Assembly: GCF_012516395.1 (NCBI RefSeq)
Contig: NZ_CP051206.1
Location: 868,001 to 932,000 of the forward strand
DNA: 64,000 bases
Reading direction: 5' to 3'
DNA from: Dolichospermum flos-aquae CCAP 1403/13F
GTDB lineage: Bacteria; Cyanobacteriota; Cyanobacteriia; Cyanobacteriales; Nostocaceae
Shown here: one piece after another, positions 46,333 through 50,960 of the stretch
Numbering within the stretch: the stretch's first letter is position 1
How the letters are laid out: each line of letters starts with the position of its first letter
Position numbers and translations under genes: made by a program
Notes under the pieces: generated by a model
The model's input: only the letters and a program-made list of their open reading frames with translations
What the model was told of the DNA's origin: nothing
Database searches by the model: none

Positions 46333-47205
46333 ATGAAAAAATTAATGCTCACAATTTCTTTATTTCTTAGCTGCATATCTCTGGTAAGTTGTGGTAACGC
46401 ACCCAAGGATATGTTTAAAGAAGATTCGAGTAATACTGTCACACAAAGTCAAAGGGAAAGTTCTTCAGTAGCACCAAGGGAACAAAAAGATAAACAAGAA
46501 TCTTCTCCAGAATCAGAAACTCAAGAAGATGAAAATAATAAAGAAGAGGAGAAAACCCCTGTTCGTAAAAACCTGGATAAAAATACTAAAAGAGATGGAA
46601 GTAAAAAACCAAAATTAGGAATAGTAAAGGAGTTAGTTAATGGTGATTTAATGTGCTACGTTACCTTAGTAGATAAAAAAGGCATTGAACACAATGTTGG
46701 TGCGAGTTTTGATATTTGTGCTGACGAGAAGAAGTTTGTCAATAAAAAAGTCCGTGCTGTTTATGAAATACAATCAGTTAATGATTGTGAAAGTGCAGAA
46801 CCTTGCGGTAAAACTCGCAAAGAATCCATCATTACAAAAATGCAAGTTGTCAGTAAAGGTTCAGAAAGAAGATCCTCAAGCGATAATTCAAAAAGTGGTA
46901 ATTCACAAACTTTAAGTAATGATGAATGGACAATTACTTTGAGTAATACTGATTCTTGGAATGGGGTTAATGGTACAGGAAATGTGAATTATAAAGGATG
47001 TGATACTAATGGTAAATGTCTCAAGTTAACAGGTGGTAAAGTTTCCTGTCGAGATGGTAAATGTGTTACAGGTTGGAAAAATGGGGATTATGTCTACATT
47101 TTAGAACAACCGATAACTGAAGATGGTAATTCTACTTCTACTTTAAGAGTGAGAAAAGATAATACTGAAATTTTGAAGACTACAGACTTGAAATTGCTGA
47201 ATTGA
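46333..47205 (+). CDS. Lipoprotein with charged linker, unknown
   Basis: This 290-residue protein has a signal peptide MLTISLFLSCISLVSC with lipobox cysteine at about 20, then about 80 residues rich in Ser, Glu and Lys (a probable disordered linker). Two folded parts follow: one with four cysteines (LMCYVTL, DICADEKKF, NDCESAEPCGK) and a C-terminal one with CDTNGKCLKL and SCRDGKCVTGW. Paired cysteines suggest disulfides in the periplasm. No family is recognised. It is 75 bp downstream of the GT39 gene and may be a substrate or partner, which is only inference. Confidence 0.68.
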   Translation: MKKLMLTISLFLSCISLVSCGNAPKDMFKEDSSNTVTQSQRESSSVAPREQKDKQESSPESETQEDENNKEEEKTPVRKNLDKNTKRDGSKKPKLGIVKELVNGDLMCYVTLVDKKGIEHNVGASFDICADEKKFVNKKVRAVYEIQSVNDCESAEPCGKTRKESIITKMQVVSKGSERRSSSDNSKSGNSQTLSNDEWTITLSNTDSWNGVNGTGNVNYKGCDTNGKCLKLTGGKVSCRDGKCVTGWKNGDYVYILEQPITEDGNSTSTLRVRKDNTEILKTTDLKLLN

Positions 47206-47250
47206 GGTATAAAATTCAAAAATTCCATCTCTCAAACTCTGACTCTCTGA

Positions 47251-47355
47251 GCAAATCTGGGCAACCACAGGGGGTTTGCCCCTACGCAAATCTGGGCAAC
47301 CACAGGGGGTTTGCCCCTACGCAAATCTGGGCAACCACAGGGGGTTTGCCCCTAC
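47251..47355 (+). repeat. Three 35-bp tandem repeats
   Basis: Exact 35-bp units at 47251, 47286 and 47321, each with the hairpin GGGCAACC...GGTTTGCCCC. The last unit ends in CTAC; read on the minus strand, this gives the TAG stop of the NrtD-like gene. Confidence 0.92.
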
Positions 47356-48185
47356 TCTGGTGTGAAATTTTGATCCAGAAAATTAAGAGCATGATTGCGA
47401 AGTTCAAAATATTCTGTAGAGTTCCGCATGGCCACTCTATCTCTAGGATGTTCAAAAGGAACTGTTAAAATTTCTCCTATTTTTGCAGATGGTCCATTAG
47501 TCATCAAAATAATTCTGTCAGACATATAAATTGCTTCGTCAACATCATGGGTAATCATCATAACAGCTTGCCGATTATGTTCCCAAATATCTAATACCTG
47601 ACGTTGTAATTTACCACGAGTTAAAGCATCTAAAGCCCCAAAAGGTTCATCCATTAATAACATTTTGGGACGAATTGCTAAAGCCCTCGCAATACCCACT
47701 CTTTGTTTCATTCCTCCAGAAATTTCATCAGGATATTTGTCTGCGGCTGCTGTTAAGTTTACCATTGTCAAGTGTTCATTGACAATGCTGATTTTTTCGG
47801 CACGATTAGCATTTTTCAAAACTTCATCTACTGCTAAACGGATATTTTCACGGACTGTTAACCAAGGTAATAATGAATAATTTTGAAATACCATCATTCT
47901 ATCTGCTCCTGGTTTCCGAATCTCTTTACCATCTAAGCGAATTGAACCAGATGTAGCTTTTTCAAAACCACCAATTATTTTTAATAATGTGGATTTACCA
48001 CAACCAGAATGACCAATAACAGAAATATATTCATCTTCACCAATGGTCAAATTAACATTATCTAAAACTGTGAATTTTCCTTTATCCTGGGTTGGATAAG
48101 ATTTAACTAAATTCTCTACTTCCAAAAATCCGTTACGGGGTAAACTTTCTGGAGAAGTATGATCTTTTAAAACCGTATATTCCAT
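47352..48185 (-). CDS. ABC transporter ATP-binding protein, NrtD/SsuB type
   Basis: This 277-residue ATPase has Walker A GHSGCGKST (about 57-65), Q-loop MMVFQNYSLLPW, signature EISGGMKQRVGIARALA, Walker B MLLMDEPFGALD and H-loop MITHDVDEA. It belongs to the nitrate/sulfonate/cyanate importer branch. It is the third gene of an operon (permease, binding protein, ATPase) with 31 bp to the gene before. The stop codon lies in a 35-bp tandem repeat. A free-standing NrtD-like subunit without an NrtC fusion partner differs from the classical nrtABCD set. Confidence 0.88.
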   Translation of the reverse strand: MEYTVLKDHTSPESLPRNGFLEVENLVKSYPTQDKGKFTVLDNVNLTIGEDEYISVIGHSGCGKSTLLKIIGGFEKATSGSIRLDGKEIRKPGADRMMVFQNYSLLPWLTVRENIRLAVDEVLKNANRAEKISIVNEHLTMVNLTAAADKYPDEISGGMKQRVGIARALAIRPKMLLMDEPFGALDALTRGKLQRQVLDIWEHNRQAVMMITHDVDEAIYMSDRIILMTNGPSAKIGEILTVPFEHPRDRVAMRNSTEYFELRNHALNFLDQNFTPE

Positions 48186-48216: not shown

Positions 48217-49659
48217 TTAAGACATGAAAAACTGAGAAGGAGCGTTAGCACGAATATCAAAACTATTGAGATATCCTACAGGATCACTAGGATCAAATCC
48301 TTTTTTATCTATAAATGCTTCCGGGGGTTCAACTTTGTCATCATCCTGGGGACATTCAATTCCCATTTCTGCCGCTATCTCTCGATATAAATCGGTTCTC
48401 CAACCTTTTGCAGCTACTTCTTCGGCGTTTTTAGGAATTTCTTTGATTTGTCCCCACCGGGCTGCTTGAGTCATTAACCAAAGACTGCGAGAACGCCATA
48501 AAAATGTGGAATGTTCTCCTTTTTCGTGGGGAATACTATTAGGAAGATCATAAAAAATTGTGGTATCATCTGCTTTGATAGTTCTGTCTTTACCATCAAA
48601 ACCACCATAATTATAATTGCCAATAATTCCCGGTCCAGTAAACTTAGTAATAGGGACACCCGGCTTTTTGGGTTTTGCCCCAGTGAAAGAACGTTGTGTG
48701 AGTAATTCGGCTATTTCTTGGCGATTTTCGGGTTTTCCACAATATTGACAAGCTTCGATCATTGCTTTCACCAAAGAACGGTAAGTTTTGGGATAATTGA
48801 CAATAAAAGATTCCATTACTCCCAGGAGTCTATCTGGGTGTCCTTGCCAAATTTCCTTACCTTGGGCAAAGGTAAAACCGATACCTTCATTACCTGTAAT
48901 TGCTCTAGTGTTCCAAGGTTCAGCAACCATGTAAGCTTCCATTGCCCCAATTCTCATGTTTGTCACCATTTGCGGTGGAGAAACAATGATTACCCGAAAT
49001 TCCTTTAAAGGATCAACACCCGCAGCAGCAGAAAGATAGCGAGCAAAGTATTCATAAATGGCAGAACTGAGGACTACAGCCCAAACTTTCTTTTCCGGGG
49101 GTTGTTTGTCAAAATAGCCGCGAAAGTCCCGCCCAAAGGCTTCCAAAGCCCCATCACCGTATTTTTGCTGATATTCAAACCAAGGACGGATGCCATAGTC
49201 CCACATATCCTTACTCATGGTCATAGCGTTACCATGACGGTGAATGGTCATTGCTGCACACAAGGGAGCATGACGCGCCCCTTCAGCCCCTATTCTAGCG
49301 TTGGTAACAGCACCAGAAACGACGGGGGAAGCGTCGAGACGACCAAAAATTAAGCCGTCGCGGGAAGTAGCCCAACTGGCTTCGCGGTTGAGTGTGACAT
49401 TTAAACCATATTTGCGGAAAAATCCTTTTTTCCAAGCGATCGCAAATGGCGCACAATCATTAACAGGAACATAACCAACAGTAATATCCGATTTTTCTAA
49501 ATCTTGGGATTTAACTACAGGTGTCACCGCTAAAGCTTCTTCTGTGAGTCCCTTAGCAGACCTATCTCCAGAAACATTACAGGATGATAATATCATTCCC
49601 GCAGTTGTCGCACCTATTCCCGTAATAAAATTCCTGCGAGTTAAATGATTTTCAGTCAT
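48217..49659 (-). CDS. NrtA/CmpA-family substrate-binding lipoprotein
   Basis: This 480-residue protein has a twin-arginine-type leader RRNFITGIGATTAGMILSSC ending in a possible lipid cysteine. The solute-binding part (DITVGYVPVNDCAPFAIAWK, MVTNMRIGAMEAYMVAEPWN) belongs to the NrtA/CmpA family, which binds nitrate, bicarbonate or related small ions. The ligand region has HRHGNAMTMSKDMW instead of a motif I could assign to nitrate, so the substrate is open (nitrate, cyanate, guanidinium and others have NrtA-like carriers). It is the second gene of the operon under the riboswitch. Confidence 0.85.
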   Translation of the reverse strand: MTENHLTRRNFITGIGATTAGMILSSCNVSGDRSAKGLTEEALAVTPVVKSQDLEKSDITVGYVPVNDCAPFAIAWKKGFFRKYGLNVTLNREASWATSRDGLIFGRLDASPVVSGAVTNARIGAEGARHAPLCAAMTIHRHGNAMTMSKDMWDYGIRPWFEYQQKYGDGALEAFGRDFRGYFDKQPPEKKVWAVVLSSAIYEYFARYLSAAAGVDPLKEFRVIIVSPPQMVTNMRIGAMEAYMVAEPWNTRAITGNEGIGFTFAQGKEIWQGHPDRLLGVMESFIVNYPKTYRSLVKAMIEACQYCGKPENRQEIAELLTQRSFTGAKPKKPGVPITKFTGPGIIGNYNYGGFDGKDRTIKADDTTIFYDLPNSIPHEKGEHSTFLWRSRSLWLMTQAARWGQIKEIPKNAEEVAAKGWRTDLYREIAAEMGIECPQDDDKVEPPEAFIDKKGFDPSDPVGYLNSFDIRANAPSQFFMS

Positions 49660-49744: not shown

Positions 49745-50590
49745 TTAACTTCCTGAACGGTGAGTAACTAACTCTTGAAGTTTTCCCACACCGTAATCTA
49801 AAATCAACCCAGTTAAGCCAATTACAAACACGGCTAAAAATACAGAACTCAGATTTAAACGACTCCATTCGTCCCAAACAAAAAATCCTATTCCTACCCC
49901 ACCAGTGAGCATTTCTACAGCCACAATTACCAGCCAAGCTATCCCCAAACTAATTCGCAAACCTGTAAAAATATAGGGCAAACTTGCAGGTAAAATAATT
50001 TTGGTAATCTGTCCCCAGCGGTTCATTCCCAAGACTTGTGCTACATCTAAATAATCTTTAGGAACATTAGAAACTCCCAACGCTGTATTAATAATAGTTG
50101 GCCACAGCGACGTAATGAAAATCACAAAAATAGCGGAAGGATCTGCTAAATTGAACAGAGATAAAGAAATGGGCAACCAAGCCAGTGGTGATACTGGTTT
50201 AAAAATCTGAATAATGGGATTAAAAGCCAGCATTGCCGGTCTGGACATTCCGATCAAAAATCCCAAGGGAATGGCGACTAATGCACCCAAACCAAATCCT
50301 AATATTACCCGCCGTAAACTTGCTAATAATAACCAACCAATGCCTAAATCACCGGGACCTCTTTCATAGAATGGATGTAAGATATAGTCCCAATTAGCAA
50401 TTAAAGCTTCTGGTGGTGTGGGCATTAATTCATGATTAGCTAATGCTACTATCCACCACAATAAAATAATTCCTAAACAGCCTAATGCTGGGAATAAAAA
50501 AGTATCTTGAAAAATTACAAGTTTGGCTTTTCTCCAAACAGTTTGTCCCGCAACTGCAAAAATGGCAGCTATATTTAGTTGCAATATCAT
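49745..50590 (-). CDS. ABC transporter permease, NrtB/SsuC type
   Basis: This 281-residue membrane protein has about six helices and the EAA-type loop of the BPD_transp_1 family (AQVLGMNRWGQITKIILPAS, about 183-202, then LPYIFTGLRISLGIAWLVIV). It is the first gene of the operon; the binding protein and ATPase follow, 85 bp and 31 bp apart. The ATG lies about 100 bp after a ydaO-type riboswitch, so the whole operon is probably controlled by cyclic-di-AMP. Confidence 0.88.
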   Translation of the reverse strand: MILQLNIAAIFAVAGQTVWRKAKLVIFQDTFLFPALGCLGIILLWWIVALANHELMPTPPEALIANWDYILHPFYERGPGDLGIGWLLLASLRRVILGFGLGALVAIPLGFLIGMSRPAMLAFNPIIQIFKPVSPLAWLPISLSLFNLADPSAIFVIFITSLWPTIINTALGVSNVPKDYLDVAQVLGMNRWGQITKIILPASLPYIFTGLRISLGIAWLVIVAVEMLTGGVGIGFFVWDEWSRLNLSSVFLAVFVIGLTGLILDYGVGKLQELVTHRSGS

Positions 50591-50691
50591 TTATTTCACC
50601 TCAGCAGAGTTAAGCTTGGATACGCAAATATTAACTAGTACCAACCTTGGACACTGATGAGATCAGAACATAATTAAAATTCTGTCTCTTC

Positions 50692-50880
50692 AGTCTCCTC
50701 TCAATGCCTACGAAGTTAGCTGACGGGCTAGGGTTGAGAGATACCCTTTTTTGCTTGATTTTAGATTTGATTTGATTTTTAAAGCTCAAATTCCTAAATT
50801 AATCAAGACAAAAATACGCCCCACAATTCGGTTCCTCCGTTCCAGCACTATTAACTGAAATATACTGGATTAAGCTGACT
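50692..50880 (-). promoter_or_regulatory. ydaO-yuaA riboswitch (cyclic-di-AMP)
   Basis: On the minus strand, reading towards the NrtB-like gene, the order of ydaO elements is: P1 strand AGTC (50877-50880); hairpin CCAGTA/TGCTGG (50863-50868 with 50842-50847); GGAACGGAGGAACCGA (50828-50843); GGGGCGTA (50815-50822); a variable AT-rich arm; AGGGT/ACCCT; the near-invariant GTCAGCTAACTTCGTAGGC (50706-50724); and GAGGAGACT closing P1 (50692-50700). B. subtilis ydaO has GTCAGCTAACCTCGTAAGC at that place. Members bind two c-di-AMP and usually turn expression off. The operon leader continues 100 nt to the start codon. Confidence 0.85.
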
Positions 50881-50960
50881 TACTCAATTATGAATAACGA
50901 CAGAATATTAACATTTATATTCAGTAATAACATCAGTAGTTGTCATGAATATTAGTTTCC

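Follow-up and report, generated by a model that had tools for sequence, protein, structure and literature searches.

Why should a c-di-AMP riboswitch stand in front of an ABC importer of the nitrate type? The question is raised by the window analysed here, a stretch of 64,000 nucleotides from the Dolichospermum flos-aquae CCAP 1403/13F genome, for which an earlier note had described a ydaO-yuaA-type leader on the minus strand, containing the string GTCAGCTAACTTCGTAGGC (50706..50724), upstream of an importer resembling NrtB, NrtA and NrtD. Both parts of this description are borne out. The Rfam covariance model RF00379 matches the leader at full length: positions 50886–50690 of the minus strand align with model positions 1–134 of 134 at 70 bits (gathering score 38), with an E-value of 3.5e-14 for a search of both strands of the 64 kb window. 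The importer operon leader thus contains a c-di-AMP-type (ydaO/yuaA) riboswitch, the aptamer of which reaches 50886 and not, as first delimited, 50880. Judged from its sequence, the leader RNA is predicted to bind c-di-AMP and to alter importer expression. The host genome (5.2 Mb, 2 contigs) contains one match to the diadenylate cyclase (DAC) domain and one further RF00379-type riboswitch besides the window aptamer. The latter (L002 / L033, G000:C1:1435777-1435892) lies at a distant place in front of a Usp-domain gene and displays a compensatory pseudoknot.

The fold of the aptamer is maintained across the order. In an alignment of 30 homologous aptamers from the order, oriented by strand, the consensus comprises 29 pairs, of which 13 vary on both sides. 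A pseudoknot is formed between the loop strand CTCTCAA (50734..50740, minus strand) and the tail strand TTGAGAG (50698..50704, minus strand); its helix is paired in 97.2% of the cells, shows double-sided changes in two of six pairs and appears in the compensatory form CCTTCC/GGAAGG in four of the 30 aptamers. With the loop-tail pseudoknot included (35 pairs), 97.2% of all cells are paired at a covariation score of 0.344, compared with 88.9% and 0.180 in shuffled controls and at most 52.1% and 0.109 in slid-partner controls; the margin over the shuffles is small for two of five measures, where 14 and 112 of 500 shuffles match the observed value. Full-length match above the cut-off, consensus helices and pseudoknot are shared with the RF00379 family at large. 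The target, in contrast, is here an NrtA-family ABC importer, whereas the available passages of the literature name K+/osmolyte transporters, wall enzymes and a chloride-type transporter as targets of c-di-AMP riboswitches.

The permease gene begins 99 nt downstream of the aptamer on the same strand. It encodes an NrtB-type ABC permease of 281 aa (49745..50590, minus strand; TIGR01183 'ntrB', 234.6 bits, cut-off 209.05) and is followed on the minus strand by the genes for a substrate-binding lipoprotein-like protein of the NMT1_2 family with 480 aa (48217..49659; PF13379, 212.8 bits) and for an NrtD-type ABC ATPase with 277 aa (47352..48185; TIGR01184 'ntrCD', 363.9 bits, cut-off 291.8). The NCBIfam models that permease and ATPase match above cut-off are named after nitrate importers; the binding protein reaches the cut-off of no NCBIfam model. 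All 34 sequences compared share Cys27 of the binding protein, whose best named match comes from a Dolichospermum (95%), and a search for viral copies of it found none. Strand and gene order (permease, binding protein, ATPase) are as described in the earlier note, and so is the lack of NrtC: the operon has no ATPase of the NrtC type, with its C-terminal binding domain, and its sole ATPase is the 277-aa protein. The operon therefore resembles NrtABCD in its NrtB-type permease, NrtD-type ATPase and NMT1_2 binding protein, but differs in gene order and in lacking NrtC. CmpABCD (BCT1) belongs to the same ABC branch, yet no CmpC is found in the operon.

The pairing of aptamer and importer is widely conserved. 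Homologues of the binding protein at 1e-100 occur in 97 of 243 genomes of the order, at 98 places comprising 91 close ones (including G150, a fragment) and seven distant ones (341–395 bits). An aptamer lies upstream in 84 of the 91 close places. For 69 of these it is found among the matches listed, on the same strand and no more than 4.5 kb upstream, a distance that by itself does not establish immediate adjacency to the permease; the 15 others emerged when the 29 places without an aptamer among the matches listed were fetched and scanned individually with our own model R1. This model was built in part from aptamers of this operon, and the Rfam scans of window, genome and order are independent of it. 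Among the close places, the aptamer is cut by the contig end at L184, the contig starts inside the permease at L174, so that the upstream region lies outside it, and L179 carries a degraded aptamer of 21 bits. Two operons look as if split over contigs (G001 with L047, G004 with L260). In the 80 named loci, which overlap with the order genomes (L054 and L168 are one locus), the aptamer precedes the permease in 79, at a median distance of 98 nt (87–133 nt), the exception being L054. Other orders of the class show the aptamer with all five close homologues (5/5), and at least 147 of the 243 order genomes have an RF00379-type riboswitch. No aptamer was detected at the eight distant sister loci (seven from the order plus L309), four of which were rescanned with filters off and gave 13.2 bits at best, or at 34 NrtA, CmpA, regulatory-ATPase and other NMT1_2 loci with flanks of about 1.5 kb (best 12.6 bits).

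Two members of the window's genus, L168 (= L054) and L169, which account for the remaining close places, have kept the operon together with upstream sequence and a ribosome-binding-like sequence and have lost most of the aptamer, which makes them natural comparison strains. Their losses could indicate that the window aptamer, too, is decayed and non-working, if its match is not a chance resemblance altogether. Against this stand the E-value obtained with the public Rfam model, the leader of the close relative L053, which is 94.6% identical over 411 nt, and the covariation across the order, and we regard chance or decay as highly improbable.

Between aptamer and permease, two hairpins are conserved in 41 representative leaders. 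Hairpin A (minus strand, about 50649..50699) abuts the tail strand of the pseudoknot and keeps each of its pairs in 33–40 of the 41 leaders; hairpin B (minus strand, about 50612..50648) does so in 27–35. Further downstream follows the sequence GAGGTG (50597..50602, minus strand), a putative ribosome-binding site. A consensus scan of the minus strand from 50690 to 50590 lists neither a promoter-like nor a terminator-like site, although such a scan is weak evidence of absence. A leader terminator or promoter was discarded as control element on this basis, and the view that no strong promoter separates the element from the permease start agrees with the same scan. Owing to the two conserved hairpins and the ribosome-binding-like sequence, together with the lack of a terminator in the scan, control is more likely exerted at translation initiation. 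Binding of c-di-AMP would fix the pseudoknot and P1, upon which the leader would refold and access to the ribosome-binding sequence would change.

Known members of the c-di-AMP riboswitch family are mostly described as OFF switches, and by analogy with these a high level of c-di-AMP would, in our own estimate, quite likely lower importer expression. The opposite polarity, an ON switch through which c-di-AMP raises expression, draws on the many co-targets described below that resemble exporters or exchangers and would be expected to go up, not down, in ion excess. Folding of 38 leaders gives a divided picture: with the aptamer folded apart, the ribosome-binding site is more open in six, less open in 13 and little changed in 19. 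The slight lean of these numbers and the behaviour of the known members both speak against an ON switch, which we consider possible but distinctly less probable. The available passages of PMC5986932 report that c-di-AMP in Fremyella rises about twofold with sorbitol and is lower with salt, and that it is higher with salt in Anabaena. Since the responses differ between species, the physiology of the riboswitch is not predictable from them.

The company that this aptamer keeps in the order points to ion and stress functions. Apart from the operon, the matches listed contain 72 riboswitches, of which 71 were classified by their first open reading frame of at least 90 aa, so that short genes can be missed; G001:C53 was left out as part of a split operon (L047). 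Among these 71, the first reading frame encodes a CitMHS/ArsB-type permease in 30 cases, a Na+/H+-exchanger type in six, a DUF937-like protein in six (assignments below or near the cut-off), a glycosyltransferase in five, and Usp and ExoD proteins in four each. The remainder comprises an unnamed small protein (three), an NrtB-like permease (two), a PMT_2-like protein and a cation P-ATPase (one each), and nine frames with no assignment. Ion transport is the largest co-target class in the order among the matches listed, though others exist. Synechocystis slr0753 is presumably also of the CitMHS/ArsB type, the commonest co-target in the order among the matches listed. As far as the accessible text of PMC10117731 goes, this putative chloride efflux transporter is controlled by a c-di-AMP riboswitch; it resembles the present case as a membrane transporter under a cyanobacterial c-di-AMP riboswitch, but is of another transporter class than the importer. 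The prominence of ion transport fits this report as well as passages of PMC5986932 and PMC4284465, according to which c-di-AMP riboswitches point to osmoprotectants in cyanobacteria. In addition, the part of a regulon survey available to us (PMC3766115) describes the riboswitch family as regulating many transporters, with a possible role in osmoregulation. The co-targets are often ion or stress genes. The caveat in the earlier note, according to which the importer may carry an osmolyte, is supported.

A second aptamer follows the ATPase gene in 65 of the 80 named loci, 22–261 nt downstream (median 30), a weak extra match at L109 (24.5 bits) being left out of the count. It is missing in 15 (L053–L062, L066, L115, L122, L123 and L127), and the window organism has no second aptamer beside this operon. 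In the loci examined (L063, L129, L273, L274), the gene after the second aptamer resembles a Usp-type gene, although the L063 copy has no Pfam match itself. L274 and L275 contain three c-di-AMP aptamers in a row, which in L274 front a CitMHS/ArsB-like permease, the importer operon and a Usp-like gene. At L276, two tandem aptamers (701–847 and 1254–1388) precede the permease. The core motif is present in two copies in L003, L004 and L009.

The binding protein belongs to neither the NrtA nor the CmpA group. In the PDB, NrtC and CmpC come nearest with their C-terminal regulatory domains (about 224 bits), ahead of NrtA (157) and CmpA (146). In a tree of 58 proteins, which is unrooted, drawn with midpoint and accompanied by a program warning of long branches meeting, the binding proteins of riboswitch operons form a clade of 26 (100/100), with seven other binding proteins, L190–L196, as its sister group (99/97); clade and sisters are jointly separated from the regulatory domains as well as from NrtA/CmpA. 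According to the passages available from PMC8786288, NrtA contacts its anion via K269 and H196. At these positions, all 26 clade members carry Arg and Tyr, respectively, which distinguishes them from NrtA, whereas the seven sister proteins mainly retain Lys (6) and His (5), and CmpA has Glu and Gln (5/5). Moreover, the Met-Pro pair of most other groups is replaced by Ala (25/26) and Val (26/26). The altered pocket of the window protein (encoded by 48217..49659, minus strand) includes Trp96, Asn144, Tyr202 and Arg277. Nitrate is thus probably not the main substrate. Arg277 would still point to an anion or zwitterion, and the cargo is probably anionic or zwitterionic, that is, a counter-ion or compatible solute.

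The L190–L194-type importers of nitrate operons share with the riboswitch operon the permease-first order and a related binding protein (about 38–44% identity), but their gene order is permease, binding protein, NrtC, NrtD, with NrtC in the loci examined, they adjoin nirA or narB, and they lack an aptamer. Seven of the eight sister loci (L190–L194, L196 and L309, not L195) adjoin nirA or narB; in L191 and L192, nirA precedes permease, binding protein, NrtC-type and NrtD-type genes, the L192 nirA being over its cut-off. In G207, moreover, an operon with an NrtA-like protein, permease, and NrtC-type and NrtD-type ATPases lies directly upstream of the riboswitch operon. Nitrate is a possible substrate in view of these neighbours, and also because the regulatory domain of CmpC, likewise near the binding protein, is reported to respond to nitrate in the accessible part of PMC13249358. 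Together with the nitrate-named models passed by permease and ATPase, this is the case for a true nitrate/nitrite importer, with nitrogen uptake gated directly by c-di-AMP. However, the pocket is changed throughout the clade, and a search of 133 fetched loci from the riboswitch group, a few of which lack the binding protein, turned up no relative of NirA, NarB or NrtP. A separate nitrate cluster is also present in the host: its nirA scores 901 bits (cut-off 594) and its NarK-family transporter 361 bits (cut-off 312), while its nitrate-reductase-like protein stays below every NCBIfam cut-off. These observations, along with the place of the binding protein outside the NrtA and CmpA groups and the frequent ion and stress genes among the co-targets, weigh against the suggestion that c-di-AMP is here tied to nitrogen uptake, and a nitrate/nitrite importer appears rather unlikely. 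A second BCT1-like system, importing bicarbonate under c-di-AMP control, would be in keeping with the shared ABC branch and with a link of c-di-AMP to carbon control via SbtB, mentioned in the available portions of PMC10117731 and PMC13249358. Nevertheless, the Glu and Gln of the CmpA pocket are Arg and Tyr here, the tree puts the binding protein at a great distance from CmpA, and the genome has a CmpA/CmpC-like pair, so named on the basis of pocket residue and tree, at another place, all of which renders bicarbonate a very improbable cargo.

The explanation that we favour, with some confidence, is a riboswitch-led importer of nitrate lineage that has been recruited to c-di-AMP-dependent ion and osmotic control and probably carries an anionic or zwitterionic substrate. 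The importer has a common origin with a nitrate-operon transporter, an altered anion pocket and no regulatory ATPase NrtC, and would serve the ion and osmotic balance controlled by c-di-AMP. Direct results of the computation are the operon, the aptamer with its conserved position shortly ahead of the permease, and the retention of both together in many cyanobacteria. Support for the recruitment comes from the aptamer with its covariation, the conservation of the pair and its absence from sister, Nrt and Cmp loci, the ion-rich regulon, the neighbouring aptamers of other loci, the changed pocket, the separate nitrate cluster of the host and the DAC domain; the nitrate-operon sisters, the G207 operon, the non-ion co-targets, the two aptamer losses and the absence of a second aptamer in the window count against it. 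More tentatively, a nitrate-lineage transporter may have turned into an osmolyte or counter-ion importer by loss of NrtC, rebuilding of the pocket and c-di-AMP control through neighbouring aptamer-bearing units, of which there are up to three. If so, importer, CitMHS/ArsB-type permease and Usp-type gene would be set together by c-di-AMP, and ion control by this nucleotide would gain a new branch.

The riboswitch family itself is already known, while the importer as target and the rows of two to three aptamers have no match in the literature passages covered. The search, which extended to partial texts, found no paper that lists the operon among the targets of c-di-AMP riboswitches, and an earlier mention is possible. 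In these passages, few cyanobacterial c-di-AMP targets are named; a conserved aptamer on this importer provides a concrete, testable one and a clue to the cargo.

Two minor features border the operon in the window. Convergent to it, a reading frame on the plus strand (46333–47205) encodes a protein of 290 aa that begins like a lipoprotein and matches no Pfam family. A sequence of about 35 nt with the core GGGCAACCACAGGGGGTTTGCCCCTAC occurs in three direct copies where the ATPase gene reaches its 3′ end (about 47250–47356), which is approximately the place of the second aptamer in 65 of the 80 named loci.
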